Virus record (IMG/VR): IMGVR_UViG_3300042554_000304
Location: 1-23,549 of that record
DNA length: 23,549 nucleotides
Source: a virus
Reading direction: 5' to 3' (one strand)
This document shows positions 2,806-23,260 of the stretch, one piece after another. Both the position numbers and the translations under genes were made by a program. How positions within the stretch are numbered: the stretch's first letter is position 1; each line of letters begins with the position of its first letter. The notes under the pieces were generated by a model. The model saw only the letters and a list, made by a program, of their open reading frames with translations. It was not told the origin of the DNA and searched no databases.

Positions 2806-4190
2806 GTCTCTTGTGAAGAAATTTCTTGGCGGTACAAATCAATCACTTGTTGGTGGTTGGCGATGTTGCCCCGCAGTAGCGAGTACATCCGGGTTTCCAC
2901 CTGACTGCCAGTGATATGCACGATGGTCATTGGGTTGACCTGACCGGGACGGTCGATACGGGCATTGGCTTGCAGGTACGTCTCTACGCTGGTGCAGGGA
3001 GCGTACCAAATAATTGTGTCGGCGGCGGTTAGGGTAAGCCCGTGGGATGCGGCCATTGGCTGGATGATGAGCACCTTTGGGTCAGGCTGACTCTGGAACC
3101 GCTGGACGATATCTGAGCGCCGATTAACCGACACTGCGCCGTTGATAACGTCACACGTTATGCCGTTCTTGGTCAAATGCTTGGCCAACACTTCGATGGA
3201 GTGAGTGAACGGCACAAAGATCAGCACCTTGTTGCTCGACTCGTCAACAACTTCCTGCACCACATTCAGTCGGTTGGATACATCGAAGTCCACCACCTCA
3301 TGGTTGTCGGTATACACCGACCCGCAAGCAATCTGAAGCAGCTTGTTAATCTTCACAGCCGCATTGACCGCAGAGACTTCTTCCCCTGCCGCTTCGATCA
3401 GCATCTCGTCCTTGAGGCGCTTGTAAAAACTCTTTTGCTGTGCCGTCATCGGGGCTTCGCGCTCGGTGAAAGTCACCGGGGGCAGGTCCAGACACTGTTT
3501 CTTCTCAAAGCGTATAGCTGGCTGTAGGATGGTATGGACAGTCTGGGACGCATCCGGCTTTGGGAGCCACCGATACATGCTGACCTTGTTCATGACCTTA
3601 TCGCGGAACTGCCCAAAGAACATCGGCACACCGCTGGGGTTGACCAGCTTTGCTAGTCCGTAAGCATCCACAGGAGACTGCGCAGCAGGCGTACCCGTGA
3701 GCATCCACAGTCCTTTGATGACCCGTGTCAAGTCGCGCAGGTCTTTCCACCGCACAGTCTGGGCGTTCTTGTACGCCGATGCCTCGTCCACTACGATGAG
3801 GTCGAACCCGCCGTCCATGATCTGCTTCTTGATGATGCCAACACCATCGAAGTTAACGACAACGAACTCGGCCCCAGCCTCAACAATTTCTTTGCGCTTC
3901 TTGGCTGAGCCATGCGCAATAGCCACTGTACGGTGGATGGCAAACTTGAACAGGTCAACTTGCCACGATGGCTTCATGATGGACAACGGACAAATCACTA
4001 ACACTCGTTTGACCAAACCCAACTTCATCAAATAATCTACAGCCCAGATCACGGATGCTGTCTTGCCCGTGCCCTGCTCGTTGAAACAAAACGCTTTACG
4101 CTGATTCGCTAAAAACTCTGCTGTGACCTTCTGATGCGCGAACGGTGTGAACCCCGGAGGCCGGGGCCACTCATACTCTGATAGATTCAT
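2802..4190 (-). CDS. SNF2-family DEAD/H helicase
   Basis: 462-residue superfamily 2 ATPase of SNF2 type. Motifs in order: Q-like FAHQ (17-20), Walker A NEQGTGKT (37-44), Walker B VVDEAS (about 133-138), motif III LTGTPAA (164-170), and motif VI QANARIDRPGQ (407-417), whose two arginines belong to the arginine-finger region. Such single-subunit phage helicases are thought to remodel or unwind DNA during replication or recombination. The ATG overlaps the stop of the HNH-like gene (ATGA); the SD is weak, so translation is probably coupled. It is full length and all core motifs are intact. Confidence 0.93.
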   Translation of the reverse strand: MNLSEYEWPRPPGFTPFAHQKVTAEFLANQRKAFCFNEQGTGKTASVIWAVDYLMKLGLVKRVLVICPLSIMKPSWQVDLFKFAIHRTVAIAHGSAKKRKEIVEAGAEFVVVNFDGVGIIKKQIMDGGFDLIVVDEASAYKNAQTVRWKDLRDLTRVIKGLWMLTGTPAAQSPVDAYGLAKLVNPSGVPMFFGQFRDKVMNKVSMYRWLPKPDASQTVHTILQPAIRFEKKQCLDLPPVTFTEREAPMTAQQKSFYKRLKDEMLIEAAGEEVSAVNAAVKINKLLQIACGSVYTDNHEVVDFDVSNRLNVVQEVVDESSNKVLIFVPFTHSIEVLAKHLTKNGITCDVINGAVSVNRRSDIVQRFQSQPDPKVLIIQPMAASHGLTLTAADTIIWYAPCTSVETYLQANARIDRPGQVNPMTIVHITGSQVETRMYSLLRGNIANHQQVIDLYRQEISSQET

Positions 4191-10220: not shown

Positions 10221-10234
10221 CTAACAAATGTTAG
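10221..10234. promoter_or_regulatory. Palindrome CTAACA-AA-TGTTAG
   Basis: Leftmost exact copy, between the last gene stop and the terminator. No copy meets the 14-bp pattern to its left. Confidence 0.8.
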
Positions 10235-10475: not shown

Positions 10476-10955
10476 TCATGCCCCCGCTTTCTCAATGGCT
10501 CGGTCGATGTACCACTTGGCCTTCTGCAAGTCTTGCAGTCGGTTGCCTTTGTGGTCGGCGCGAGTGATGTACTTCACGGCATTGCCCAGGTGGTACCCCA
10601 GTGACTTCGCTTCAATGAAGTCGATGGTCTCGATTCCACCTACCTTGTAATGGGCAGGATGATTCACTGGATCGGACTTTGGTGGGGCGTTCATCATCTC
10701 CTCATCTGTTGGCCCGCCTTGCATCCGAATCTTGTCTGTTATGGACTTGTTGCTTGAGAACACTGCTATCCGCTTGAAGTTCCCTGCGCGTTGCTTCTTT
10801 GGCTTCTGCATCTCCTTGCGCACCATGTACGCAACCGAATATGAGGTCTTGAATTTATCCGCAACCTCTTTGACGGTAGCCGTTGGGTTGCCGTTGTAGT
10901 ACTGACGCATCAGGGATGCGCGGGAAACTTTTTTCACTTTTTTAGTTGTTGCCAT
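10476..10955 (-). CDS. DUF3310 protein with N-terminal HTH (T7 gp1.7-like)
   Basis: 159 residues. Residues 96-155 match DUF3310: VNHPAHYKVGGIETIDFIEA, then YHLGNAVKYITRADHKGN and LQDLQKAKWYIDRAI. T7 gp1.7, the best-known member, is a nucleotide kinase acting on dTMP and dGMP. The N-terminal 15-50 region (SLMRQYYNGNPTATVKEVAD, then YSVAYMVRKEM) reads as a helix-turn-helix, so this looks like a DNA-binding/DUF3310 fusion joined by a basic linker. SD AAGGAG sits 6 nt before ATG. The domain call is firm; kinase activity is only inferred from the family. Confidence 0.85.
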   Translation of the reverse strand: MATTKKVKKVSRASLMRQYYNGNPTATVKEVADKFKTSYSVAYMVRKEMQKPKKQRAGNFKRIAVFSSNKSITDKIRMQGGPTDEEMMNAPPKSDPVNHPAHYKVGGIETIDFIEAKSLGYHLGNAVKYITRADHKGNRLQDLQKAKWYIDRAIEKAGA

Positions 10956-11157
10956 TGTTGGCTCCTTGTTGACTGTTGATGTACTCGGTAAGAATTTCTC
11001 TCATCTTGGCTTGCTTTGTATACGGATATTTGGTGTTGAAATAATCCATCACCTCCTTTGGTAGACGCAAGCTCGTGCAAAAAAGTGGCGGCTTCTTACC
11101 CAACCCCCGCCCCTTCTTTGGCTTTATCAGTTTCAGTTCCTCAATTCCCGTTGTCAT
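10942..11157 (-). CDS. Ribbon-helix-helix-like DNA-binding protein
   Basis: 71 residues. After a basic N-terminus (KPKKGRGLGKK) comes TSLRLPKEVMDYFNTK followed by AKMREILTEYINS, the strand-helix-helix pattern of RHH (CopG/Arc) repressors. RHH dimers usually bind short palindromes, so this is a candidate reader of the CTAACA repeats; that is inference. SD GGAGG is 7 nt before ATG. It overlaps both neighbours by 14-17 nt, in line with a tightly packed operon. Confidence 0.65.
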   Translation of the reverse strand: MTTGIEELKLIKPKKGRGLGKKPPLFCTSLRLPKEVMDYFNTKYPYTKQAKMREILTEYINSQQGANNGNN

Positions 11158-12992: not shown

Positions 12993-13192
12993 TCCTCCCC
13001 GCACTCTGCGAGTGCTGTGTTTGTGAGTTCTCTAACTTTTGTTAGAACGTCCTGTGGATTGGCGTCATACTTGAAGTAGTTGCGAACCTCCACCTGAATG
13101 TCTATCAATGCGCTGATAGCCCTACTCCCATTGAGTGCGTGCCGTAGCTTATCCTGATCTTCGGGGTATGTGAATTCAAGAATTGCTTTCAT
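12989..13192 (-). CDS. Small phage protein, MKAILEF type
   Basis: 67 residues starting MKAILEFTYPED, with SD GAGAGGA; an earlier in-frame start would overlap two genes. The layout MKAILEF-x-x-PED...A-x-x-G...AL-x-D...R-x-x-x-KY is a frequent small phage protein of unknown function. It contains a palindrome copy in frame, encoding LTKVR. ATGA overlap with the membrane-protein gene. Confidence 0.75.
   Translation of the reverse strand: MKAILEFTYPEDQDKLRHALNGSRAISALIDIQVEVRNYFKYDANPQDVLTKVRELTNTALAECGEE
13032..13045. promoter_or_regulatory. Palindrome copy, one mismatch (CTAACT-TT-TGTTAG)
   Basis: Inside the 67-residue gene. On the coding strand it reads CTA ACA AAA GTT AGA, giving Leu-Thr-Lys-Val-Arg. 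Confidence 0.55.
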
Positions 13193-13364: not shown

Positions 13365-13378
13365 CTAACAGTTGTTAG
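13365..13378. promoter_or_regulatory. Palindrome CTAACA-GT-TGTTAG
   Basis: It supplies the TAA stop (13377-13375) of the 278-residue gene and lies 16 nt ahead of the next start codon. Confidence 0.85.
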
Positions 13379-14211
13379 GTCTGCTCATCCAACACTAGGA
13401 CAAACACTTCATCATTGACACGACACCCTACGTTGGATAGGAATGTCTCAGCCTCCACCAATTTCAACATACCCAACTTACTACGCATCTCGTGAGGGAG
13501 CGTATTATCATCGTAGAGTTGTACATTGTCACGCACTTTGACCAAGTACTTACCCGAATCTTTTATGACTAGGGCAACCTCTTCCTTCTCAAAGCGTTGG
13601 CGTATGGTCTCAATGGTGAGCATCTCACCTCGCACCTCCTCAGTCTTCTCCACAGCCTTGAGAATAGGGGTACTTATCGACGGGGGTTGTGTGCCTATGT
13701 ATTCCAAGAAATGTGCAAGCCCCGGACCGCTGAAGTATTCCAGCGCCGCCTTTCGGATGGTCTGCTCCTCTTGAGCCTTAGCCCTCTCCCGATTCCAAAT
13801 CTGGCTGTTTATAGCGTCATGCGCACTCTTCGTTGCTTGAGTGATGCGCTCGTCTGGCTTCAAACGATAGAACATCTTCTTGGCTTTGAGTATGGCCTTC
13901 TCTGCATCTTCTGTGTGATACGTATCCCCACGGCTACGCCCTTTGGCAATGCGGTCGTTGCATATGCCAATCACATTAGTCCCACCCCTATACGTCCGTG
14001 CGATCGTGCCTAGCTTCTCGCCCTGCTCAAACACATCGAACCCCATCGCTGACTTGACACCCTGAAAGTTGGTGTTTACGTCTTTTACCCGAAACGTCCA
14101 CAGTGGGTTCAGTGTTGCCAGTCGATACACCACTTGATTAATAGTTCCGTGAACCTCGTCCACTTTGCCATGCTTGTGGGTGTCAATGTTGCTCAGTTCC
14201 ATTGTCTTCAT
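13375..14211 (-). CDS. Hypothetical 278-residue protein of the AAA+/VWA module
   Basis: Starts with SD AAGGAG 6 nt before ATG. The first 120 residues look like a mixed alpha/beta domain. A charged helical middle follows (AKAQEEQTIRKAALEY), then a segment (TIETIRQRFEKEEVALVIKD) and a beta-rich end (GKYLVKVRDNVQLYDD). No catalytic motif seen. It directly follows the MoxR/VWA-type genes, 10 nt after the next large unknown gene, so it may be a substrate or partner of that module; this is inference from position. Its TAA stop lies in a palindrome. Confidence 0.75.
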   Translation of the reverse strand: MKTMELSNIDTHKHGKVDEVHGTINQVVYRLATLNPLWTFRVKDVNTNFQGVKSAMGFDVFEQGEKLGTIARTYRGGTNVIGICNDRIAKGRSRGDTYHTEDAEKAILKAKKMFYRLKPDERITQATKSAHDAINSQIWNRERAKAQEEQTIRKAALEYFSGPGLAHFLEYIGTQPPSISTPILKAVEKTEEVRGEMLTIETIRQRFEKEEVALVIKDSGKYLVKVRDNVQLYDDNTLPHEMRSKLGMLKLVEAETFLSNVGCRVNDEVFVLVLDEQT

Positions 14212-14221
14212 CTAATACTCC

Positions 14222-15076
14222 TTACCATTCAAACTTATTGATGATTGCGTCCACCTTGGACTTCAATTCACTGCGCGTGTCGGCGTCTTCCTTGATGCTC
14301 TCCATGTCCGCGTTCAACATCGCTACCTCTACTTGCCTACGTGCTTCCTCCAACTTCGGGTCATTGGTAATGTTCAACTTCGTCAAAAGAGAACAGAGTT
14401 CCAGAGGATTGGTAAGCAACGTGTCGTGGTAACGCTTCTTGCCGTCATCCCCCTCAACATCAGTCAACTTCTCCGACATTGCCACCAACGTCTTATGCAG
14501 ACGGTCCCACGGCTCGCGCATTGCCTCTGCCAACTTGCGGTCTTGCTGTGACATAAACTCGCTGCGCATCTCCTCCAAGTCATACGCAGGAATGTCTAAG
14601 CGGAAGTCACCGGCCTCGGGCACAGGCTTGACTGTTCTGCGGAAGCCAAACTTCAATCTAACATCTGTTAGCTCGGGGTAGTCCTCTGCCTTGTACAGCC
14701 CCTGCAACGCAGTCGGTGCCTCGGCAACCAAGCGCGGGTACTCGATGTAGAAGTTGTTGCACATCATGTTGAACGTCTGCTCAAACCCATTCATGGTCTG
14801 CTTGTAGTCCATGAACAACGCAGTCGGTAACATGCGCTCACCCTTGTCAGCCCAAGGCAGGGTGTGCTTGTTGTGATACAGGCGCACTCGTGCGGCAAAG
14901 TCCGCAATGTCCTTGCGTAGGCTCGTACCCGCAAACAAGTTCTTCTTGGTCTGGGATGCCCCACGCACCGCCCCTGCATCTGAGTTCACCTTGTCCGTGA
15001 TCTCTCGGTCGATCTTGGACGCAGGCCATACGCTGATGTTCAATTCCACTAACACTGCTGATGCACTGATACTCAT
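14222..15076 (-). CDS. DUF3150-like hypothetical protein next to AAA+/VWA genes
   Basis: 284 residues, mostly helical. It opens MSISASAVLVELNISVWPAS, then a region with GASQTKKNLFAG, a helical core and a final charged helix (SELKSKVDAIINKFEW). Length, opening and neighbourhood (MoxR-type ATPase plus VWA protein) resemble DUF3150 proteins as I remember them; the domain assignment needs a profile search. SD AAGGAG, ATGA overlap. It contains a palindrome in frame, giving LTDVR. Probably a third component working with the ATPase. Confidence 0.7.
   Translation of the reverse strand: MSISASAVLVELNISVWPASKIDREITDKVNSDAGAVRGASQTKKNLFAGTSLRKDIADFAARVRLYHNKHTLPWADKGERMLPTALFMDYKQTMNGFEQTFNMMCNNFYIEYPRLVAEAPTALQGLYKAEDYPELTDVRLKFGFRRTVKPVPEAGDFRLDIPAYDLEEMRSEFMSQQDRKLAEAMREPWDRLHKTLVAMSEKLTDVEGDDGKKRYHDTLLTNPLELCSLLTKLNITNDPKLEEARRQVEVAMLNADMESIKEDADTRSELKSKVDAIINKFEW
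14658..14671. promoter_or_regulatory. Palindrome CTAACA-TC-TGTTAG (intragenic)
   Basis: Within the 284-residue gene; coding strand CTA ACA GAT GTT AGA encodes Leu-Thr-Asp-Val-Arg. Confidence 0.75.
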
Positions 15077-15540: not shown

Positions 15541-16740
15541 TCAATCGCGGATATGAATCGTCTTGCCATTGGGCGCAACTTCATCATTACCCCCCACGAT
15601 CACCCACAACACAGGCGCGGTCCACTCGTTACCCCAATCGCTACCAACATACCCATCGGTGAGCATGATGATGCACTCGGGCACGATGCTCTTGTCCTTG
15701 AGATATGTGGATACGCAACTAGGTGAAGTACCCCCACCGCCCGCTGGCTTGGTTGACTGCACGATGGTCGATACAGTAGCGCCTGTGTAAGTCTCATGCG
15801 CCGCCACTTCGCCATCCCAATAGATTAAGTCCACGATCTCGGGGCTTACTTCTTCTGCAATACCCTGAACCTCGGACAGACACTCGGCAAGTTCCTTATC
15901 ACCCACCGAACCAGATGCGTCAATACCGACCACCAAGTGACCAACCTTCTCACCAATCAGCGTAGGCATATACACGCCTGTGGATAAGAATCGGCGGTTG
16001 ACCCTACGCCATGAGGACTTGTCCTTGGCACTGCACGTTGACTTCACAAACTCACGCAACACTTCACGCCAATCCACCTTGGGCTCCATCAAGCCTTCAA
16101 GTTCGCGGTCCATGCCGCCTGTACCAGTTCCCGCCTTCTTGGCAGAAATCAGTCCTTGGCGTATCGCTTGGTCAATCTCTCGTGCAAGTACCTTCTTCTC
16201 TTCCTCGGTCATGTCCTTCGCACCATCCCAGTCGTGGTCATCGAACCCATCGCCGTCACCACCACCGCCGCCACCGCCCTCATCCTCCTCCTTGAGAATG
16301 TCGAACACTTGCTTGGCGTTCATACCTCGGAATCGCTCGTCCACCAAGCCCATCACCTTGCCCTTGTTCGGGCCATCGGTGTAGCGTGGCATGGCAATCA
16401 CTGTCTCGCTCGGGTCCAAGTCCTTGAGCATGAGGTTAATCACGTAGTCACAAGCGGAATTCGCCAGGCGGAAATTCTCATCATGCAACTTGCGCCATGT
16501 AGTGAGATGCCGATACATCTTGTGCGCGTTCTCATGCGCCACCACAAACGCCAATTCGGGGTCGCGTAGCTTCTTCACAAACTCGCGCCCATACCGCTCG
16601 TCTCGCCCATTGGTACAGGCGGTCGGGATGTTGTCATCCACTCTGGTACGCCCAACCATCAGGATGCCACTCAGCAATGCGAATTTGGAATTGCGCATCA
16701 AACTGATCTTTGCCTTCTGCACTTTGCGTTCTTCTAACAT
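15541..16740 (-). CDS. Metallopeptidase/VWA-like protein (DUF2201 type)
   Basis: 399 residues. The N-terminal domain has VVAHENAHKMYRH (H69-E70-x-x-H73), the HExxH zinc site of the metallopeptidase-like region found with VWA-like domains. A Gly/Asp-rich linker (about 152-173) separates it from a C-terminal VWA-like domain with the MIDAS DASGS (274-278) and TDG (361-363). Such proteins pair with MoxR-type AAA+ ATPases (compare RavA-ViaA, CbbQ-CbbO), and that ATPase is two genes upstream. The start ATG is inside a palindrome, preceded by SD AAGGAG. The domain calls are strong; the substrate is unknown. Confidence 0.9.
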   Translation of the reverse strand: MLEERKVQKAKISLMRNSKFALLSGILMVGRTRVDDNIPTACTNGRDERYGREFVKKLRDPELAFVVAHENAHKMYRHLTTWRKLHDENFRLANSACDYVINLMLKDLDPSETVIAMPRYTDGPNKGKVMGLVDERFRGMNAKQVFDILKEEDEGGGGGGGDGDGFDDHDWDGAKDMTEEEKKVLAREIDQAIRQGLISAKKAGTGTGGMDRELEGLMEPKVDWREVLREFVKSTCSAKDKSSWRRVNRRFLSTGVYMPTLIGEKVGHLVVGIDASGSVGDKELAECLSEVQGIAEEVSPEIVDLIYWDGEVAAHETYTGATVSTIVQSTKPAGGGGTSPSCVSTYLKDKSIVPECIIMLTDGYVGSDWGNEWTAPVLWVIVGGNDEVAPNGKTIHIRD

Positions 16741-16747
16741 TTGTTAG
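16734..16747. promoter_or_regulatory. Palindrome CTAACA-TT-TGTTAG holding stop and start codons
   Basis: It carries the ATG of the VWA-like gene and the last codons plus TAG stop of the 45-residue gene (ends Ala-Asn-Lys-Cys). SD AAGGAG abuts it upstream. Confidence 0.9.
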
Positions 16748-16871
16748 CTCCTTCTGTTAATAATTTAATTACGGCTTCGCAAGCACCTCTATCTTCATGT
16801 TTGAATATCCATTGATACCCATCCATAACATAGAACCCTAATACTTGCGTGCCCTGTATGTGGTATCTCAC
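16734..16871 (-). CDS. Very small hypothetical protein
   Basis: 45 residues with a GTG start overlapping the ATPase stop (GTGA); SD AGGA 6 nt upstream. Sequence pattern: RYHIQGTQVLGFYVMDGYQW, then a helix (DRGACEAVIKLLTEG). The last codons come from a palindrome. It sits between the ATPase and its VWA partner, so it may tune their ratio through coupling or act with them. No family recognised. Confidence 0.6.
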   Translation of the reverse strand: MRYHIQGTQVLGFYVMDGYQWIFKHEDRGACEAVIKLLTEGANKC

Positions 16872-17932
16872 AACAAGTCCTGATTCTTTGCTACCCACTC
16901 GCTGAATGCCTTGCAACTGAACGCAATGGCTTGCTTGTCGCGGTTCTTCGCAATGTTGATAGCGAACACGGCTTGCCACTCGGCATCGAACCGCTCCACA
17001 TACTCCATGAATGGGGTGATGCTTTGCTTGTCGATACGTGCAATGGCTCCGAACACCACAATCGCACACGCGCCAGGGCTTGTGGGTACCTTGGTGTGCT
17101 TAGGGTCTCGGATGGTCGCCTCCCATGTGGGCAACTGATCGGAGAATTCGATGTACGCTTGCATGTCCCGCGCACCGCTCTCACCGATTGCACCTGTCAA
17201 CGCCGCGATAACTGAGTCGGTGTCGTTCTCTCTGCGAGTTCTAACAATGTTAGATGCAGTCTCCAATGAGCGTGGAGTTACGAACGCCGTCATAGTCTTG
17301 CGGGGGTTGAAGATGTAGGGGTTGTCGGCTTGCCCACCATCGGTGTAGCTTGCCAGCACATGAGGGAAACGATTCACCCATGCAATCACCTCGGGCTCGA
17401 TACCCTTGTTGATAGCCCACTCAATCCACGCCTCGGCATCGGGCTTGGCTACGTTGAGAGACACAATGCGATTCAAGCTGTGCGCCTTCAACGCATCGCC
17501 CACACCATCGGTGCTCAGGTTGCCAGTCATGAATACCACAGTCTTGTTGTTCAGCGGGATATCACCCAGGCGAGGGTTCGCCTTCTCAAGCATGGGGTGG
17601 AGCATGTTCTTCACAGGGTCTGCACCCTTACTGAATTCGTCCAGCATGATGAGCATGGGCTTGCCAGTATGCACACCGAACCGCGCATTGGGGTAGTAGC
17701 GGGTGGTCTTGGTCTCATGGTCGATCACAGGCATTGCGATGTCGCCCAAGTCCATATTGGGTACGTCAATATACGCATAGTCGCACCCAAGGTCTCCAGC
17801 GATTGACTCCAGCAAGGATGACTTGCCAATCCCAGGTTCACCTCGTAGCATGAACCTCGTGGTCGGGTTCGTTTTGATAAGCGTTGCCGCTTGCTTCAAG
17901 GTCACAGTTTTTCCGAAAGTTACTTCTGACAT
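16868..17932 (-). CDS. MoxR-type AAA+ ATPase
   Basis: 354 residues starting MSEVTFGKTV (SD GGAG 7 nt upstream; an in-frame TTG two codons earlier is less likely). Walker A GEPGIGKSS (31-39), Walker B LIMLDEFSK (D98, E99), sensor 1 FMTGN (N138) and SLNR (R155), a likely arginine finger. This is the pattern of MoxR/CbbQ-like ATPases, which act with VWA proteins to remodel or insert cofactors into targets. A VWA-like partner is encoded just downstream. It is first in its transcription unit behind a consensus promoter. Confidence 0.92.
   Translation of the reverse strand: MSEVTFGKTVTLKQAATLIKTNPTTRFMLRGEPGIGKSSLLESIAGDLGCDYAYIDVPNMDLGDIAMPVIDHETKTTRYYPNARFGVHTGKPMLIMLDEFSKGADPVKNMLHPMLEKANPRLGDIPLNNKTVVFMTGNLSTDGVGDALKAHSLNRIVSLNVAKPDAEAWIEWAINKGIEPEVIAWVNRFPHVLASYTDGGQADNPYIFNPRKTMTAFVTPRSLETASNIVRTRRENDTDSVIAALTGAIGESGARDMQAYIEFSDQLPTWEATIRDPKHTKVPTSPGACAIVVFGAIARIDKQSITPFMEYVERFDAEWQAVFAINIAKNRDKQAIAFSCKAFSEWVAKNQDLL
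17241..17253. promoter_or_regulatory. 13-bp palindrome CTAACAATGTTAG (intragenic)
   Basis: Inside the AAA+ ATPase gene, in a different frame from the other intragenic copies (coding SNIVR). One central base instead of two. Confidence 0.65.
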
Positions 17933-17959
17933 TTTCAAACTCCATCTGATGTGCCGTTT

Positions 17960-17973
17960 CTAACAGTTGTTAG
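17960..17973. promoter_or_regulatory. Palindrome in the ATPase leader
   Basis: CTAACA-GT-TGTTAG, 51 nt downstream of the -10 box and 27 nt upstream of the ATPase start codon. Confidence 0.85.
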
Positions 17974-18024
17974 ATTCGGCGGGTTACAAAAAACTAACGA
18001 ACACACTTCTACTAACCAACCTAT

Positions 18025-18053
18025 ATTATACCACAATGTTATGGATATGTCAA
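18025..18053 (-). promoter_or_regulatory. Consensus promoter A (AAA+/VWA module)
   Basis: TTGACA (18053-18048), 17-bp spacer, TATAAT (18030-18025): full consensus on the minus strand. The spacer half next to the -10 (ATAACATTGTGG) is shared with promoters B and C. It lies 9 bp after the stop of the 352-residue gene. Confidence 0.9.
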
Positions 18054-18062
18054 GTTTATAGG

Positions 18063-19121
18063 TCACACTATCTCTGATATCCAAGCCGCATACTTCGGGT
18101 TGGGGGTTTTCCCTACCTCCAGTTCTACCCGCTCCAGCACCTCCTCGGCGTGGTACTTCAGTATGGCCTCGTCAATCATGGGCATCCACTCGTCTACATG
18201 GACCCACCCCTCCATGTCGTAGTCGTGCAGTACCCACTCGTTGTTGTGGGTGGACCTACTCTCTCGATACCCTTCTACCAATAACGCCATCGCACCTCGG
18301 TAGAAGTTATCGTGTTTCACATCCTCGGGCTGTCCGTTTACGATCGTCTCGGTGAACGCCTTCATGTTCTCCTCATACTTGCGTATCGCATCGCGGTGGT
18401 CTTGCTTCTGCGTCTCCGTTGGGTTGAAGTAATACAGCTTTGTCGGCTTGCCAAAGATGCAGTCGGTCTTCTCGCGGTTCAGTGCTTTGGCATCGTTGTA
18501 CGTGCTGTCCATCACACCAAACAGATTAACCGCCTCCTGTACGCCGAAATTGATTCTATTGAACCTTCGCTCGTATGCCCTGCCCTGATGTAACACATGC
18601 TCCTTTTGGCGCAGGTTTATGAACCCACCCAGATACTTGCGGAATTCAGAATAGCGCGATCTAACATTTGTTAGAGCCTTGCGACTAGCCTTGTATCCAT
18701 ACAGCGTTTCATGCTCTAGCACTCTCCATGCGCCAGTTCCCTTATGGCCCAGCGTCAGCGTGTTGTCGCCTGTCATGGTGTAATGCTGCCCATTCACAAT
18801 GAGGACACTGCTCCCACTCTTCCCACGCGCAGGTATGCCTAACACTTGTTGGATGAATTGGTGCGATGACACACTCGCCCACCCATCGGTGCGTAGCACG
18901 ATCACCCCATCGGGCTTGTATGTGATGACCGGGGTTTTGTACAAAACAAACTCCACATCCTCGCCGTTCATGCGCACAGAGTAGTTGTCCACATCCCTGC
19001 GGTCGCCCAAGGGTCGAATCTCGGGAGACCGCCCCCTGATTGGTACGGCGTTGTCGTGTACCTGTTTGGCGTGTCTAGGGTCAAACACCCTCGGTACTCT
19101 CTTCACTGTTGAATATCCCAT
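18063..19121 (-). CDS. Large hypothetical phage protein
   Basis: 352 residues starting MGYSTVKRVP, with SD AAGGAG 6 nt upstream; an in-frame TTG five codons earlier overlaps the previous gene. The N-terminal third is beta-rich (VEFVLYKTPVITYKPDGVIV, then SSVLIVNGQHYTMTGDNTL); the middle and end are helical and charged (ETQKQDHRDAIRKYEENMKA). No catalytic motif recognised. Two palindrome copies lie inside. It is the longest unknown of the early region. Confidence 0.75.
   Translation of the reverse strand: MGYSTVKRVPRVFDPRHAKQVHDNAVPIRGRSPEIRPLGDRRDVDNYSVRMNGEDVEFVLYKTPVITYKPDGVIVLRTDGWASVSSHQFIQQVLGIPARGKSGSSVLIVNGQHYTMTGDNTLTLGHKGTGAWRVLEHETLYGYKASRKALTNVRSRYSEFRKYLGGFINLRQKEHVLHQGRAYERRFNRINFGVQEAVNLFGVMDSTYNDAKALNREKTDCIFGKPTKLYYFNPTETQKQDHRDAIRKYEENMKAFTETIVNGQPEDVKHDNFYRGAMALLVEGYRESRSTHNNEWVLHDYDMEGWVHVDEWMPMIDEAILKYHAEEVLERVELEVGKTPNPKYAAWISEIV
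18661..18674. promoter_or_regulatory. Palindrome CTAACA-TT-TGTTAG (intragenic)
   Basis: Inside the 352-residue gene; coding strand CTA ACA AAT GTT AGA gives Leu-Thr-Asn-Val-Arg. Confidence 0.75.
18839..18852. promoter_or_regulatory. Palindrome copy, one mismatch
   Basis: CTAACACTTGTTGG, inside the 352-residue gene and in a frame different from the Leu-Thr-x-Val-Arg copies. It may be chance. Confidence 0.35.
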
Positions 19122-19122
19122 C

Positions 19123-19323
19123 TCATGCTCCTTCAAAAAGTTTAATGAATTCCATTGCCTTGGCGTGTGTCAGCCCTTCGGCTAAATACTCCCACTTACG
19201 CTTCAATATCTGTGCCTCCCATTGGTACTTGCGGCGTATGAGCAATTCTTTGCTTCCGTCGTCATTCGTGAACCCCGTGATGCACCAATCGTCTCCCTCC
19301 AATGTCTTTGGTATCCCCTCCAT
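19123..19323 (-). CDS. Small hypothetical protein
   Basis: 66 residues starting MEGIPKTLEG; ATG shares one base with the upstream stop (TGATG), SD GGGGGAG, and a GTG one codon earlier is an alternative. A beta-like front (DWCITGFTNDDGSKELLIRR) is followed by helices (WEAQILKRKWEYLAEGLTHA). The layout of a short sheet then helix resembles the 54-residue protein next to it. Unknown. Confidence 0.65.
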   Translation of the reverse strand: MEGIPKTLEGDDWCITGFTNDDGSKELLIRRKYQWEAQILKRKWEYLAEGLTHAKAMEFIKLFEGA

Positions 19324-19487
19324 CACTCCCCCTGTGCGCGTACTCGGTACGCCTTGAGTTTTTTCAGCGTTGGATATGTTGTCTTGAACATCTCCTTGGC
19401 CACCTGTTTACTGCGGCATTCGATCGACTCGGCAACCCATTGCCCGAATCTGTCGCACCACCCTGTCACGTAGTATCTAGCTAACAT
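19323..19487 (-). CDS. Very small hypothetical protein starting inside a palindrome
   Basis: 54 residues: MLARYYVTGWCDRFGQWVAE, then SIECRSKQVAKEMFKTTYPT and a basic end. A likely beta hairpin plus helix. ATG is at bases 8-10 of the palindrome on the coding strand, 3 nt after the upstream TAA, with SD AAGGAG. The next gene follows with TGATG overlap. The RYYV-x-GW...W opening recalls the 45-residue protein near the ATPase (RYHI-x-G). No known family. Confidence 0.7.
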   Translation of the reverse strand: MLARYYVTGWCDRFGQWVAESIECRSKQVAKEMFKTTYPTLKKLKAYRVRAQGE

Positions 19488-19494
19488 TTGTTAG
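19481..19494. promoter_or_regulatory. Palindrome holding TAA stop and ATG start
   Basis: CTAACA-TT-TGTTAG. Coding strand C-TAA-CAA-ATG-TTAG: TAA ends the 112-residue gene and ATG begins the 54-residue gene. Confidence 0.9.
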
Positions 19495-19829
19495 TCTCCT
19501 TCTTGCCAGTCTTTGCATACACAGTGGTCTTCGATGCCTGTTTTGTACGCAGGGCAACTCACCATGTGGATAAGTTTGTGTCCGTGGTAAATGAATACAT
19601 CAATAACCGTGGCGTGGTCGTGCAACTGCTTTGTTACATTTGTGTATAGCTTAGAAGCTATAACCAACTGCTCGGGCGTGGTCTCAGGGTTGTTCATCAG
19701 CGTAAGCAGGGTCTCTTCCATGAGACGCGCATTCTTGAGAATGCTCTCCCACTTGCGCATGAACATGCGAGTCTTAGGTTTGCTAAGTCCGTGATACCAA
19801 CTATTTGGTTCTATTTCACTCGCTTTCAT
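19491..19829 (-). CDS. Hypothetical 112-residue protein
   Basis: Starts MKASEIEPNS at an ATGA overlap with SD AGGAG/GGAG upstream. The first half is helical (MRKWESILKNARLMEETLLT); the second has THV-type helices (ASKLYTNVTKQLHDHATVID) and ends with a Cys-rich region (VSCPAYKTGIEDHCVCKDW), which might bind metal. Not recognised. Confidence 0.65.
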   Translation of the reverse strand: MKASEIEPNSWYHGLSKPKTRMFMRKWESILKNARLMEETLLTLMNNPETTPEQLVIASKLYTNVTKQLHDHATVIDVFIYHGHKLIHMVSCPAYKTGIEDHCVCKDWQEGD

Positions 19830-20014
19830 GCTCTCCACTCCTGTTGTTTCACGGTTATTTTGTACCCCAACTGCTTGATGTAGTGGAGGTCGGCGGGGCG
19901 CAGGGTCTTGGTTCCTGCAATGTCGGTGAACAGTTTGGCTTTGGGGCATACAGGGTATGCCTTGTCCTCGCCGTACACGTTCTTGATCTGGATGGTTATC
20001 TCTTGATCTAACAT
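19826..20014 (-). CDS. Small hypothetical protein starting inside a palindrome
   Basis: 62 residues: MLDQEITIQIKNVYGEDKAY, then PVCPKAKLFTDIAGTKTLRP and a helix-strand end. The front reads as a beta hairpin ending in a single Cys; the TLRPADLHYIKQLGYKITVK part suggests a small alpha/beta domain. ATG is in a palindrome, SD AAGGAG, upstream TAA only 3 nt away. Unknown. Confidence 0.65.
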   Translation of the reverse strand: MLDQEITIQIKNVYGEDKAYPVCPKAKLFTDIAGTKTLRPADLHYIKQLGYKITVKQQEWRA

Positions 20015-20021
20015 CTGTTAG
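20008..20021. promoter_or_regulatory. Palindrome holding TAA stop and ATG start
   Basis: CTAACA-TC-TGTTAG. Coding strand C-TAA-CAG-ATG-TTAG joins the 166-residue and 62-residue genes. The centre differs from the other junction copies but keeps the ATG. Confidence 0.9.
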
Positions 20022-20518
20022 TCTCCTTTTTCGTCTTCGATTGTGTATTTCCCAAGAGCTATGCCCCCCATCATTTTGCGTATCTCAGCATCCACAAACT
20101 CCCATGTGCGGTAGTTCGTAGTCGGAGGCCATGAAGCCTTCCCGCTGTGGTTGACCATGCGCATCTTGATGTAGAGTCCGGGCAAAAAGTCCTCGCTGTG
20201 GGCACAGTCGAACCCGAACCACCACACGTTGCCCTCCCTGCCGCTGTACGTCAGCCCGCCATGCGGAGAGTAGTCGTTGCCCATATCCAAGCGGTTGTAG
20301 TCCACCCCTACCAAGTCCCCAGTGGTTACACCCACGTAACCGCAAAGCGTGTGCGTTATCTCGTTGCGCCAGATGCGCCCACACAGTCCAGTCTCTGCGT
20401 CCACCCACTCGGCGTTGTCGGGCTCACCTTCCCACGGACGATAGGGCTCGAGCAACTTGTACTGGTCATAGATGGATACCAGCATGTCGGGCATCCCCGG
20501 TGCTTTGATTTCTAACAT
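20018..20518 (-). CDS. Conserved phage protein with GFDCAHSED motif
   Basis: 166 residues. The middle holds CGYVGVTTGD, SPHGGLTYSG and WWFGFDCAHSEDFLPGL, a set of Gly, His, Cys and Asp residues typical of a widespread phage family of unknown function; the conserved H, C, H and D could form a metal or catalytic site. The end is helical (YRTWEFVDAEIRKM). ATG lies in a palindrome with SD GGAGG 9 nt upstream. The family is recognised by motif only. Confidence 0.75.
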   Translation of the reverse strand: MLEIKAPGMPDMLVSIYDQYKLLEPYRPWEGEPDNAEWVDAETGLCGRIWRNEITHTLCGYVGVTTGDLVGVDYNRLDMGNDYSPHGGLTYSGREGNVWWFGFDCAHSEDFLPGLYIKMRMVNHSGKASWPPTTNYRTWEFVDAEIRKMMGGIALGKYTIEDEKGD

Positions 20519-20525
20519 TTGTTAG
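20512..20525. promoter_or_regulatory. Palindrome holding TAA stop and ATG start
   Basis: CTAACA-TT-TGTTAG. TAA (20524-20522) ends the 31-residue membrane protein; ATG (20518-20516) starts the 166-residue gene. Confidence 0.88.
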
Positions 20526-20617
20526 ACCCTCCAAATCAGCACATCAATACATACCACAATAAGTGCAACCAAAAACACCACGCGCAGTACGCGCTCGGAC
20601 AATTTGTAGTCGTTCAT
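20522..20617 (-). CDS. Tiny membrane protein nested in an overlapping frame
   Basis: 31 residues: MNDYKLSERVLRVVFLVALI, then VVCIDVLIWRV. One hydrophobic helix from about residue 11. A strong SD (AAGGAG, 7 nt spacer) and a stop supplied by the palindrome support it. It overlaps the 3' end of the 72-residue gene by 74 nt in another reading frame, so one of the two could be false; the SD and exact fit to the next junction argue for it. A lysis or envelope role is possible but unshown. Confidence 0.5.
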   Translation of the reverse strand: MNDYKLSERVLRVVFLVALIVVCIDVLIWRV

Positions 20618-20762
20618 CTTCGATCTCCTTACATACATTACGAACCACGCGCCGCGCATCAAGGCGCGAGGCGAACCACTTCGACAACTGAGGGTCATCG
20701 TCTTGCAGTAAGCCGGGGGGATACCCAGTCATGGGGCCGGGCTTAATCCACTTTTTCTTCAT
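20544..20762 (-). CDS. Small hypothetical protein
   Basis: 72 residues starting MKKKWIKPGPMTGYPPGLLQ, with SD GGAGGGGGA and ATGA overlap with the gene upstream. The middle is a charged helix (SRLDARRVVRNVCKEIEDER); the end GVFGCTYCGMY has a C-x-x-C pair. The last third overlaps a membrane-protein frame, which may explain its odd composition. Function unknown. Confidence 0.6.
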   Translation of the reverse strand: MKKKWIKPGPMTGYPPGLLQDDDPQLSKWFASRLDARRVVRNVCKEIEDERLQIVRARTARGVFGCTYCGMY

Positions 20763-20947
20763 TCCCCCTCCTCCTCGGTTGCCTCTACACCGCACAACTC
20801 CATGACCTCGGTCACGGCATGATGGACATCTTCAAAGTACTCGGGATGGATTCCATCTGGGTCGCGCAGGTAGTTGCGCAAGTCCTCGTCTATCGCTTGC
20901 AACAGCTTGTGTAGGCGCTCGGTCTGGTCTAGGTCAAAATCTAACAT
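20759..20947 (-). CDS. Small acidic helical protein starting inside a palindrome
   Basis: 62 residues, net acidic: MLDFDLDQTERLHKLLQAID, then EDLRNYLRDPDGIHPEYFED and a Glu-rich end (EATEEEGE). Two helices around a DPDG turn. ATG is in a palindrome, SD GAGGA, and the upstream TAA is 3 nt away. High negative charge is common in phage proteins that mimic DNA or bind host factors, but this is only a hint. Confidence 0.68.
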   Translation of the reverse strand: MLDFDLDQTERLHKLLQAIDEDLRNYLRDPDGIHPEYFEDVHHAVTEVMELCGVEATEEEGE

Positions 20948-20954
20948 TTGTTAG
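20941..20954. promoter_or_regulatory. Palindrome holding TAA stop and ATG start
   Basis: CTAACA-TT-TGTTAG. TAA (20953-20951) ends the 56-residue gene and ATG (20947-20945) starts the 62-residue gene. Confidence 0.9.
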
Positions 20955-21121
20955 TTCCTCAATGCACGTTCAAGATACGCTGATACTTGGTCGAGTTCCT
21001 CGACGGGAACACCAAGTTCGGCACTAATCAATTCAACCAAGGTGCGATCACCAAGGTGCAGGTTTCCGTGGTCAAGGGCGACCTTCGCCACCTCTTGAAT
21101 CAAAATCTGTAAATCGCTCAT
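20951..21121 (-). CDS. Very small helical protein
   Basis: 56 residues: MSDLQILIQEVAKVALDHGN, then LHLGDRTLVELISAELGVPV and EELDQVSAYLERALRN. Three helices, with LVELISAELGVPVEELDQ resembling a small helical interaction domain. SD GGAG 5 nt before ATG, TGATG overlap with the zinc-finger gene upstream. Unknown. Confidence 0.68.
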   Translation of the reverse strand: MSDLQILIQEVAKVALDHGNLHLGDRTLVELISAELGVPVEELDQVSAYLERALRN

Positions 21122-21369: not shown

Positions 21370-21383
21370 CTAACAGTTGTTAG
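21370..21383. promoter_or_regulatory. Palindrome in the leader of promoter B
   Basis: CTAACA-GT-TGTTAG, 72 nt downstream of the -10 box, 9 nt before the first ATG; the SD AAAGG follows directly. Confidence 0.85.
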
Positions 21384-21455: not shown

Positions 21456-21484
21456 ATTATACCACAAAGTTATGGGTTTGTCAA
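21456..21484 (-). promoter_or_regulatory. Consensus promoter B
   Basis: TTGACA (21484-21479), 17-bp spacer, TATAAT (21461-21456): full consensus. Preceded by an A-tract (CTAAAAACTTGACA) shared with promoter C. It drives the zinc-finger gene and the run of small genes after it. Confidence 0.9.
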
Positions 21485-21715: not shown

Positions 21716-21729
21716 CTAACAAATGTTAG
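21716..21729. promoter_or_regulatory. Palindrome in the leader of promoter C
   Basis: CTAACA-AA-TGTTAG, 49 nt downstream of the -10 box. Here the coding-strand centre is TT, so no ATG is formed, and the gene starts further on. Confidence 0.85.
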
Positions 21730-21778: not shown

Positions 21779-21807
21779 ATTATACCACAAAGTTACAGAC
21801 TTGTCAA
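21779..21807 (-). promoter_or_regulatory. Consensus promoter C
   Basis: TTGACA (21807-21802), 17-bp spacer, TATAAT (21784-21779). From the shared CTTCAGCTAAAAACTTGACA to past the -10 box it is nearly identical to promoter B, differing mainly in the five bases after -35, so B and C look like a duplicated block. Confidence 0.9.
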
Positions 21808-22202: not shown

Positions 22203-22216
22203 CTAACAACTGTTAG
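22203..22216. promoter_or_regulatory. Palindrome CTAACA-AC-TGTTAG
   Basis: Between the two 31-bp repeats, with no gene adjacent, so it cannot be explained by codon use. Confidence 0.8.
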
Positions 22217-22306: not shown

Positions 22307-22339
22307 AAAAAAGCCCGACCTAACAATGTTAGAACGGGC
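22307..22339 (-). terminator. Intrinsic terminator with a palindrome in its stem-loop
   Basis: Minus-strand RNA: GCCCG, UU, CUAACAUUGUUAG, GU, CGGGC, then six U. The outer GC stem closes on the 13-bp palindrome, which extends the hairpin. It follows the first terminator by a few bases. Confidence 0.8.
22320..22332. promoter_or_regulatory. 13-bp palindrome CTAACAATGTTAG within terminator
   Basis: Forms the inner stem of the terminator at 22307-22339; a protein bound here as DNA would sit over the termination site. Confidence 0.75.
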
Positions 22340-22387: not shown

Positions 22388-22663
22388 TTAGTGATTGTAA
22401 AAAGACTCCCAATAAACTTCGGCTTGTCGTTCGTTTTCGTCTTCGGTTTCCCATCTATTCTGCATTGACTCTTCAGCGGCTTTTTCCAGCTTTGCTTGTT
22501 TTTCCCATTGTTTAATATTCCTTGCAAACCTTTCGCGCTCAGGGTCAATAAATTTTGCCAACTCAATCAAAAATAGATATTCATCTGAGCACAAATGAAC
22601 TTCATCTTCTTTCACTGACATTGCAGTGATAACCATGAAGGCTTGTTCTTCGGTGATAACCAT
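22388..22663 (-). CDS. Hypothetical acidic helical protein
   Basis: 91 residues starting MVITEEQAFM. SD GGAG 7 nt upstream favours this ATG over one in the palindrome 24 nt earlier, which has a hairpin where its SD should be. The sequence is highly charged: ELAKFIDPERERFARNIKQW, then EKQAKLEKAAEESMQNRWET and DENERQAEVYWE, a long helix or coiled coil. Tandem terminators follow. No family recognised. Confidence 0.68.
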   Translation of the reverse strand: MVITEEQAFMVITAMSVKEDEVHLCSDEYLFLIELAKFIDPERERFARNIKQWEKQAKLEKAAEESMQNRWETEDENERQAEVYWESFYNH

Positions 22664-22680: not shown

Positions 22681-22694
22681 CTAACATTTGTTAG
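22681..22694. promoter_or_regulatory. Palindrome CTAACA-TT-TGTTAG
   Basis: In the leader of the 91-residue gene. An ATG is formed as at other junctions, but here the chosen start lies downstream. It abuts a strong hairpin. Confidence 0.85.
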
Positions 22695-22723: not shown

Positions 22724-23233
22724 TCAGCCCAGTTTGTCGATATCACCGCCAAGGTCGGCAAAGATATCCATCAGCGTGGCCTTGTGCTCGCTTGCGTAGC
22801 ATGAAACCCCATCTTCTTCGGCCTTGAAGATTCGGTTTATCATGGTTTGCAACTCGGCCTTGGTCTTGTCATCGACATTCATCGCACCTTTGACGCGGTT
22901 TCCGGCGGTGATGTAACCCGATGCTTCCTTGACACGTTGCCAATAAACGTCAATGGTCGGTTTACCGAAACCCTCATTTGTCATCGCGGCCACAAATGCC
23001 TCTCGCTCAGCGTTGACGCCTTTTTTCAGCGCGCCCTTGAGGTCGAACCATTTGGTGGTAACTTGACCCTGATTGTCGGTGAGGTCAAAGGCTGAACACA
23101 AGGCCATTGCATACACTTTGACCACTTGACCGGTTTTCTTGGCCGCGCCGACTAAGGCGGTGCGAGAATCGATCAAACTGTTGACGCCTTGGGCGATGGG
23201 GGAAACTACTGACACGTTTTGGATGGTATCCAT
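22724..23233 (-). CDS. Hypothetical protein, first gene of the right end
   Basis: 169 residues. Sequence runs from VSVVSPIAQGVNSLIDSRTA through TGQVVKVYAMALCSAFDLTD and EGFGKPTIDVYWQRVKEASG, to an acidic end (DGVSCYASEHKATLMDIFAD). The helical middle (IDVYWQRVKEASGYI) could bind DNA, but I see no HTH that I would defend. SD AAAGG, its own promoter D, and palindromes on both sides mark it as an early, regulated gene. A candidate for the regulator itself, by position only. Confidence 0.72.
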   Translation of the reverse strand: MDTIQNVSVVSPIAQGVNSLIDSRTALVGAAKKTGQVVKVYAMALCSAFDLTDNQGQVTTKWFDLKGALKKGVNAEREAFVAAMTNEGFGKPTIDVYWQRVKEASGYITAGNRVKGAMNVDDKTKAELQTMINRIFKAEEDGVSCYASEHKATLMDIFADLGGDIDKLG

Positions 23234-23246
23234 ACTCTAACCTTTT

Positions 23247-23260
23247 CTAACATTTGTTAG
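23247..23260. promoter_or_regulatory. Palindrome in the leader of promoter D
   Basis: CTAACA-TT-TGTTAG, 63 nt downstream of the -10 box; SD AAAGG of the 169-residue gene follows within a few bases. Confidence 0.85.

Follow-up and report, generated by a model that had tools for sequence, protein, structure and literature searches.

A dispersed DNA dyad of uncultured phages is probably the site of a first early gene product and differs in spacing among relatives

In a viral DNA of 23,549 nucleotides (IMG/VR record IMGVR_UViG_3300042554_000304, here called the window), a short palindrome supplies, at several gene junctions, both the stop codon of one gene and the start codon of the next, which raises the question of what this word is for. 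The window holds 20 dyads with perfect arms (CTAACA/TGTTAG). They are located at gene junctions, in promoter leaders, in the middle of genes and ahead of the first early promoter. Matches to the 14-mer with up to three mismatches number 40 on the two strands, compared with a mean of 1.7 and a maximum of 6 after shuffling. The features are listed below, with the strand where one is assigned.

22724..23233, minus strand: first early gene (FEG), without family match, encoding a candidate dyad-binding protein of 169 aa
23324..23352, minus strand: predicted FEG promoter, TTGCAT-17-TATAAT, conserved in L010 and L007
23393..23405: 13-mer dyad upstream of the FEG promoter
23247..23260: 14-mer dyad, FEG leader
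22681..22694: 14-mer dyad upstream of gene 22388-22663
22313..22339, minus strand: terminator hairpin, its loop holding 13-mer dyad 22320-22332
22203..22216: 14-mer dyad, noncoding
21779..21807, minus strand: predicted early promoter
21716..21729: 14-mer dyad, leader
21456..21484, minus strand: predicted early promoter
21370..21383: 14-mer dyad, leader
20941..20954: 14-mer dyad, stop-start junction (TAA-CAA-ATG)
20512..20525: 14-mer dyad, stop-start junction
20008..20021: 14-mer dyad, stop-start junction (TAA-CAG-ATG)
19481..19494: 14-mer dyad, stop-start junction
18661..18674: 14-mer dyad in gene 18063-19121
18025..18053, minus strand: predicted promoter of the MoxR-like gene
17960..17973: 14-mer dyad, MoxR leader
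17241..17253: 13-mer dyad in the MoxR-like gene (SNIV codons)
16734..16747: 14-mer dyad with the VWA start codon
15517..15530: 14-mer dyad after the VWA gene
14658..14671: 14-mer dyad in gene 14222-15076 (LTDVR codons)
13365..13378: 14-mer dyad overlapping the end of gene 13375-14211
13032..13045: dyad with altered inner base (CTAACAAAAGTTAG)
10221..10234: last 14-mer dyad of the block

The original prediction took the palindrome to be a stop-start junction in itself, and the reading frames agree with what it described. At 19481, 20008, 20512 and 20941 a TAA and the next ATG lie 3 nt apart within the dyad, with an SD-like GGAG or AGGA directly upstream: ORF 19323-19487 (MLARYY) comes after the frame that ends at 19491, ORF 19826-20014 (MLDQEI) after ORF 20018-20518, ORF 20018-20518 (MLEIKA) after the frame that ends at 20522, and ORF 20759-20947 (MLDFDL) after ORF 20951-21121. 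The dyad at 16734 supplies the ATG (16740) of the MLEERK protein (DUF2201/VWA) together with the TAG (16734-16736) that closes the overlapping frame 16734-17069; five genes thus begin Met-Leu, as had been noticed. The minus strand, which is the coding one, carries the exact word CTAACAAATGTTAG at 16734, 19481, 20512 and 20941, and the site at 20008 is CTAACAGATGTTAG, so that the junction word C-TAA-CAA-ATG-TTAG is correct for 19481, 20512 and 20941 and has to be amended at 20008, where CAG replaces CAA. Homologues of the small flanking genes were found among 80 loci in 40 cases for the 54-aa gene, 23 for the 166-aa gene and 12 for each of the two 62-aa genes (19826 and 20759), and those 80 loci held no homologue of the 56-aa gene 20951-21121. 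The VWA start lies inside a dyad in most relatives inspected, despite a different upstream gene.

The half-site TAACA/TGTTA is common to about 190 related uncultured phage loci, which differ in the length of its centre. Most phages have a single length of 1, 2 or 3 nt; a length of 0 and the variant TGACA-N2-TGTCA are rare. Each spacer is used nearly exclusively, and one spacing makes up at least 90% of the sites in 62 of 79 dereplicated phages. We refer to these spacings as dialects. The TAAC of the half-site is nearly invariant, the centre is variable and seen in either orientation, and in a 65-kb relative the dyads are confined to the early block. Among 1084 sites from 74 dereplicated phages, a start codon falls within 188 (20 expected) and both start and stop within 89, while 253, about a quarter, are intragenic. 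Most dyads are hence not junctions, a point that the earlier description missed; joint use as stop and start holds for some sites, far above chance, with a gap of 2, 3 or 4 nt according to spacing. Relatives keep the arms. Since the gap tracks the dyad spacing, it is the dyad that is conserved and the junction geometry that follows; the junction was accordingly rejected as the selected unit, and the dyad's service as stop and start codon is probably a by-product. Junctions would come about because the dyad accommodates C-TAA...ATG-TTAG and because, in a packed operon, a 14-bp site would meet the fewest constraints between two genes.

Sites in the middle of genes show selection on the dyad word itself, also where it provides no stop or start codon. 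The MoxR-like protein contains SNIV nearly always, and these codons are spelled as the 13-mer in 46 of 50 phages with spacer-1 sites elsewhere versus 6 of 40 without (P=3e-14). The site within gene 18063-19121 is re-spaced at the same place in spacer-1 relatives through codon change, and the site within gene 14222-15076 is present only in spacer-2 or TGACA phages.

The dialect follows FEG (22724-23233). When trees of FEG, MoxR and VWA were compared on the same 61 phages, the dialect changes needed were 4, 9 and 8, respectively. Further loci were collected by FEG alone and their dyad spacing was then scored: (i) spacer 1 was commonest in 73 of 76 loci with a spacer-1-type FEG, (ii) spacer 3 was commonest in 4 of 4 loci with a spacer-3 FEG, and (iii) spacer 2 prevailed in most of the 78 loci with a spacer-2 FEG. 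L040, a relative nearly devoid of sites, carries an unrelated gene at the FEG position. Exceptions are a subclade of the spacer-2 FEG superfamily that uses spacer 1 (L354, L355, L360, L361, L363-365) and the reverse case, L280. A few sites of another spacing are retained in some phages, and a search of the mixed-spacing phages (the window, L067 and L074) for a second, spacer-1-type FEG found none. Because centre length changes in step with FEG, the dyad is probably the DNA binding site of this protein; since FEG and the sites are linked, co-inheritance could account for part of the correlation.

FEG has no database match and belongs to no recognisable DNA-binding family or fold; family scans matched it to no HTH family, and an HTH-like helix pair is seen in the predicted model only (pLDDT 82, pTM 0.53). 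Foldseek gave no match under E 0.001 for two FEG models against the PDB or for the first model against BFVD, and VIA-align yielded Z at most 6.2, which is uninformative for helical proteins. No FEG match was obtained with two queries among 50,697 records of isolated phages, where VWA finds matches only under 60% identity, and no FEG relative was found in bacterial genomes with the spacer-2 FEG profile.

The position of the sites suggests what binding would accomplish. A dyad lies 28-99 nt downstream of 123 of 163 promoter-like sequences (16 expected; mode 48-56). For FEG itself, a dyad is present 95 nt or more upstream in 94 of 109 cases, 86 of them in the main spacing of the phage, and in L007, L010 and L058 it is upstream of the predicted FEG promoter. 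Leader-site distances cluster about 11 bp apart; the sample includes related phages, and helical phasing is therefore not relied on. We propose that FEG is made first and that its dimer then binds directly to the double-stranded dyad ahead of its own promoter, ~50 bp past other early -10s and repeatedly along the operon. Judged by where the sites are, it would there repress or road-block early transcription in the manner of distributed stoperators, resulting in early shut-off and autoregulation. We assign this reading a probability of roughly 0.6. The operator originally predicted is thus retained in the form of a DNA-level dimer site, for which mid-gene selection, the site upstream of the promoter, the constancy of TAAC and the FEG-matched spacing argue.

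The same protein might instead aid early transcription, either by RNA polymerase loading at the leader site that leads to terminator read-through (antitermination), or by activation, from the dyad that lies in the FEG control region, of the divergent late promoter. The preferred distance of leader dyads past the -10, a dyad in the terminator loop, a dyad between early and late genes at 94 of the 109 FEG loci, and the lack of a sigma70-like late promoter in most of the divergent regions inspected would all fit. However, many dyads are distant from any promoter or terminator and the search gave no known antiterminator relative, and we consider such positive action unlikely. It is also rather improbable that another phage or host protein reads the dyad and that the match with FEG reflects joint inheritance with the sites. 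FEG does sit inside the site block, and the neighbourhood also encodes an RHH-like protein (10942-11157) as well as small HTH proteins, but MoxR and VWA of the same block follow the dialect less well, a host factor would need to change in step with FEG, and the RHH-like protein, being near-identical in spacer-1, spacer-2 and spacer-3 phages, was rejected as the reader. A role of the dyads in organising or marking phage DNA (condensation, segregation, protection), in which FEG would be a structural DNA-binding protein and gene control secondary, appears very unlikely: sites are spread regularly and many are intragenic, but they are restricted to the early block and concentrate after promoters. 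Least credible is the earlier idea that the dyad folds in mRNA over the AUG and controls translation, since, although start codons and an SD immediately upstream would favour it, the predicted hairpins are weak (14-mer -2.4 kcal/mol, 13-mer -1.1), the outermost pair is frequently lost with no compensating change (A.G 38, C.T 14 and G.G 14 versus A.T 8) and many sites are in leaders, noncoding DNA or the middle of genes. An Rfam search of the window matched no known structured RNA, and the stable, compensated pairs of an RNA translational operator at the ribosome binding site are not seen; such control is poorly supported, and a minor translational side effect may accompany the dyad.

The nearest known kind is the 17-bp palindrome TGTTCGG-NNN-CCGAACA of Cluster O mycobacteriophages such as Corndog, present in 34 copies and there of unexplained function (PMC4351075). 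Both are dispersed, non-oriented dyads with constant arms and a variable centre, many in intergenic gaps and a part (about a third in Cluster O) in genes, in phages not obviously temperate. In contrast, sequence and hosts differ, the arms being CTAACA/TGTTAG here, and the Cluster O palindromes are genome-wide whereas the dyads described here keep to the early block and track one protein family; the consulted part of that account gives neither a binding protein nor spacing dialects (PMC4351075). In the Cluster A mycobacteriophages L5 and Bxb1, stoperators (13-14 bp, some 24-34 copies) are likewise numerous, intergenic or overlapping gene ends, and co-vary in sequence with their binding protein, for which FEG is the candidate here (PMC3029335; PMC13313380). 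They are, however, asymmetric, oriented with transcription and bound by the HTH repressor of temperate phages, whereas our dyad is symmetric with its centre either way, varies mainly in spacing, and has as its candidate a first early gene product of unknown fold (PMC3029335; PMC13313380). Start-associated sequences (SAS/ESAS) of Cluster K mycobacteriophages are similarly repeats tied to the translation starts of a subset of genes, but SAS are asymmetric and adjoin the starts, whereas the majority of our symmetric sites are located elsewhere (PMC3203893). Virulent coliphage TLS also has repeated sites, about 18 intergenic 21-nt repeats which its authors likened to stoperators; these are oriented direct repeats ~76 nt upstream of starts and not dyads (PMC11447400). 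The specific asymmetric loop of a lambda N/boxB hairpin finds no counterpart in a centre that is variable and occurs in both orientations.

Dispersed palindromes of unexplained role have been described in some phages, Corndog among them, and with their different dialects the about 190 loci serve as a mutagenesis experiment performed by nature, which points to a previously unnoticed candidate protein and predicts that FEG proteins differ in spacing preference. It is then tempting to speculate, at slightly less than even odds, that FEG founds a new DNA-binding regulator family of phages whose fold is undescribed, in which TAAC stays fixed and dimer spacings evolve (0, 1, 2, 3 bp) while ~15-20 sites per genome, including mid-gene codons, are rewritten in concert. 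If right, this would add a new regulator family, illustrate clearly the rewriting of an entire regulon once a single protein had altered its dimer spacing, and imply regulatory incompatibility groups among co-occurring phages.

The 14-nt dyad, read in the original prediction as operator, stop codon and start codon in one, was confirmed at 16734, 19481, 20008 (with CAG instead of CAA), 20512 and 20941, with stop and start codons as claimed, TAA and ATG 3 nt apart at all four junctions, and Met-Leu at the N-terminus of all five downstream genes. These stop-start junctions belong to a larger set: between 10221 and 23405 the window, an IMG/VR virus contig of 23,549 bp, contains 20 dyads whose CTAAC/GTTAG arms are perfect, 17 in the 14-mer layout (including one in which an inner base is altered) and 3 in the 13-mer layout; a two-strand search of the window allowing ≤3 mismatches yielded 40 matches versus 1.7 expected. 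Counted by the length of the centre between the TAACA and TGTTA half-sites (1 nt in the 13-mer, 2 nt in the 14-mer), the window is mixed, with 18 spacer-2 and 4 spacer-1 dyads. Features of the window referred to here are:

22724-23233 (-): FEG, first gene of the early operon
22313-22339 (-): terminator hairpin with a 13-mer dyad as its loop, standing behind a second terminator
22157 and 22237: 31-bp direct repeat GCTACGCCCACCCGAAGAACTGGTGCAAGAA, with a dyad shortly before each copy
18025-18053, 21456-21484, 21779-21807 (-): predicted early promoters, sharing with many relatives ATAACWWTGTGGTATAAT through spacer and -10, which partly resembles the dyad half-site
15541-17938 (-): gene pair encoding a VWA/DUF2201 protein and a MoxR-like AAA protein
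10942-11157 (-): 71-aa RHH-like protein with a KKGRGxGKKP stretch

In L010 and L007, both close relatives, a 14-mer stands at this terminator instead, a difference of 1 nt in dyad spacing.

With the VWA protein as query, 80 loci were retrieved, from phages known as uncultured contigs, with gene calls from a simple script. Most phages are nearly exclusive for one centre length of 1, 2 or 3 nt (their 'dialect'), some mix dialects, and two related phages use TGACA-N2-TGTCA. In most inspected relatives the VWA start codon lies inside a dyad despite a differing upstream gene. In the 65-kb relative G001, sites are confined to the part of the leftward early operon nearest its promoter (11.4-24.2 kb), and the 40-kb late operon is devoid of them. 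Distant relatives of the VWA protein (<60% identity) occur in 633 isolated phage records. The FEG-bearing contig L288 carries four spacer-0 dyads (TAACATGTTA), and in L074 a GIY-YIG-like endonuclease gene (3189-3902) has its start codon in a spacer-1 dyad, the leaders of the same phage having TGACA-N2-TGTCA.

A start codon falls within 188 of 1084 sites (74 phages), and in nearly every case the ATG occupies one fixed position of the right half-site. Stop and start are mostly separated by 2 nt for spacer 1, 3 nt for spacer 2 and 4 nt for spacer 3; 253 other sites lie inside genes, and the remainder are intergenic or overlap a stop. Promoter-like sequences (TTGACn, 16-18 nt, TATAAT; called by consensus only) are followed by a dyad 28-99 nt downstream in 123 of 163 cases (mode 48-56), with 16 expected within 120 nt. 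Of 109 loci, 94 have a dyad 95-260 nt before the FEG start (almost without exception at 110-180 nt), and in 86 of these 94 it has the phage's own main spacing; in L007, L010 and L058 it precedes the predicted -35 by about 36-42 nt. This stretch could still be transcribed from a late promoter; no clear sigma70-like late promoter was found in most divergent regions inspected. Recurrent elements between the diverging FEG and small terminase genes (in L007 at 3425-3875, and in other phages) are blocks rich in G and a TTACAC-N-CTGTGT-like motif on the late strand.

The MoxR-like protein retains SNIV in 87 of 90 distinct sequences counted, encoded as TCT AAC ATT GTT A (a 13-mer) in 46 of 50 phages with spacer-1 sites elsewhere and in 6 of 40 without (Fisher P=3e-14, inflated by shared ancestry), and in spacer-2-only phages the SNIV codons do vary freely. 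In gene 18063-19121, spacer-2 phages have xTNVR (xTA ACA AAT GTT AGx) and spacer-1 phages ANNVR (GCT AAC AAT GTT AGx), with dyad place constant, codon number equal and spacing different. The site at nt 406 of gene 14222-15076 is restricted to phages of the spacer-2 or TGACA type, which have LTDVR in place of LEEVK-like residues. The nucleic-acid word itself is thus under selection at sites devoid of a start or stop. In L064, L067 and other phages of mixed dialect, mid-gene sites are spacer 1 while the leaders and the VWA start have spacer 2, suggesting that the leader sites are the most important and the mid-gene ones trail after a dialect switch.

The dyad had also been proposed to fold in RNA. 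The predicted hairpins are weak, however, and among dereplicated phages half-site positions 2-5 (TAAC) are almost invariant, whereas the outer C varies on a single side with no trace of base-pair compensation. Moreover, the inner A:T pair is conserved, although the size limit of hairpin loops would prevent it from closing over 1-2 nt in RNA. Together with the dyads upstream of the predicted FEG promoters, these features favour a dyad read as DNA rather than RNA.

Wherever the flank of a site-bearing phage is long enough, a homologue of FEG occupies the same position; in L040, with a single dyad, an unrelated gene takes this place. No Pfam match above its cut-off was found, and none in PHROG, NCBIfam, PDB or BFVD; the predicted model is all-helical and in two parts. 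Spacer-1-type and spacer-2-type FEG families share only about 20% identity and are connected by profile searches. When further loci were retrieved with FEG as sole query, spacer 1 was the commonest dyad in 73 of 76 loci with spacer-1-type FEG, spacer 3 in 4 of 4 with spacer-3 FEG, and spacer 2 in most of 78 with spacer-2-type FEG, a test only partly independent since this set overlaps the VWA-fetched contigs and several loci have one or two sites. Exceptions are instructive: within the spacer-2 superfamily, one subclade (L354, L355, L360, L361, L363-365) uses spacer 1, and its aligned members are one or two residues shorter immediately ahead of the predicted recognition helix; L280 uses spacer 2 within the spacer-1 superfamily. 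On quick trees with some long branches, the same 61 dereplicated phages require 4 dialect changes for FEG, 9 for MoxR and 8 for VWA. The RHH-like protein exhibits almost no difference between dialects, being strongly conserved within the clade in every one. Two FEG-like genes per contig are seen in L081, L283, L277 and L234.

The best-supported reading is that FEG binds the dyads as a dimer, at the level of DNA, and that early transcription is under its control; the binding, the dimer and the direction of the effect are all inferred here. Most likely, the dimer would act as a repressor or roadblock of early transcription, with autoregulation. In its way of working the closest known system is that of the stoperators (PMC3029335), from which the dyad system differs by its symmetric site and by a candidate protein that is no recognised repressor. 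Closest in anatomy are the dyads of Cluster O phages (PMC4351075), which are unexplained. By the features tested, the dyad system belongs to neither.
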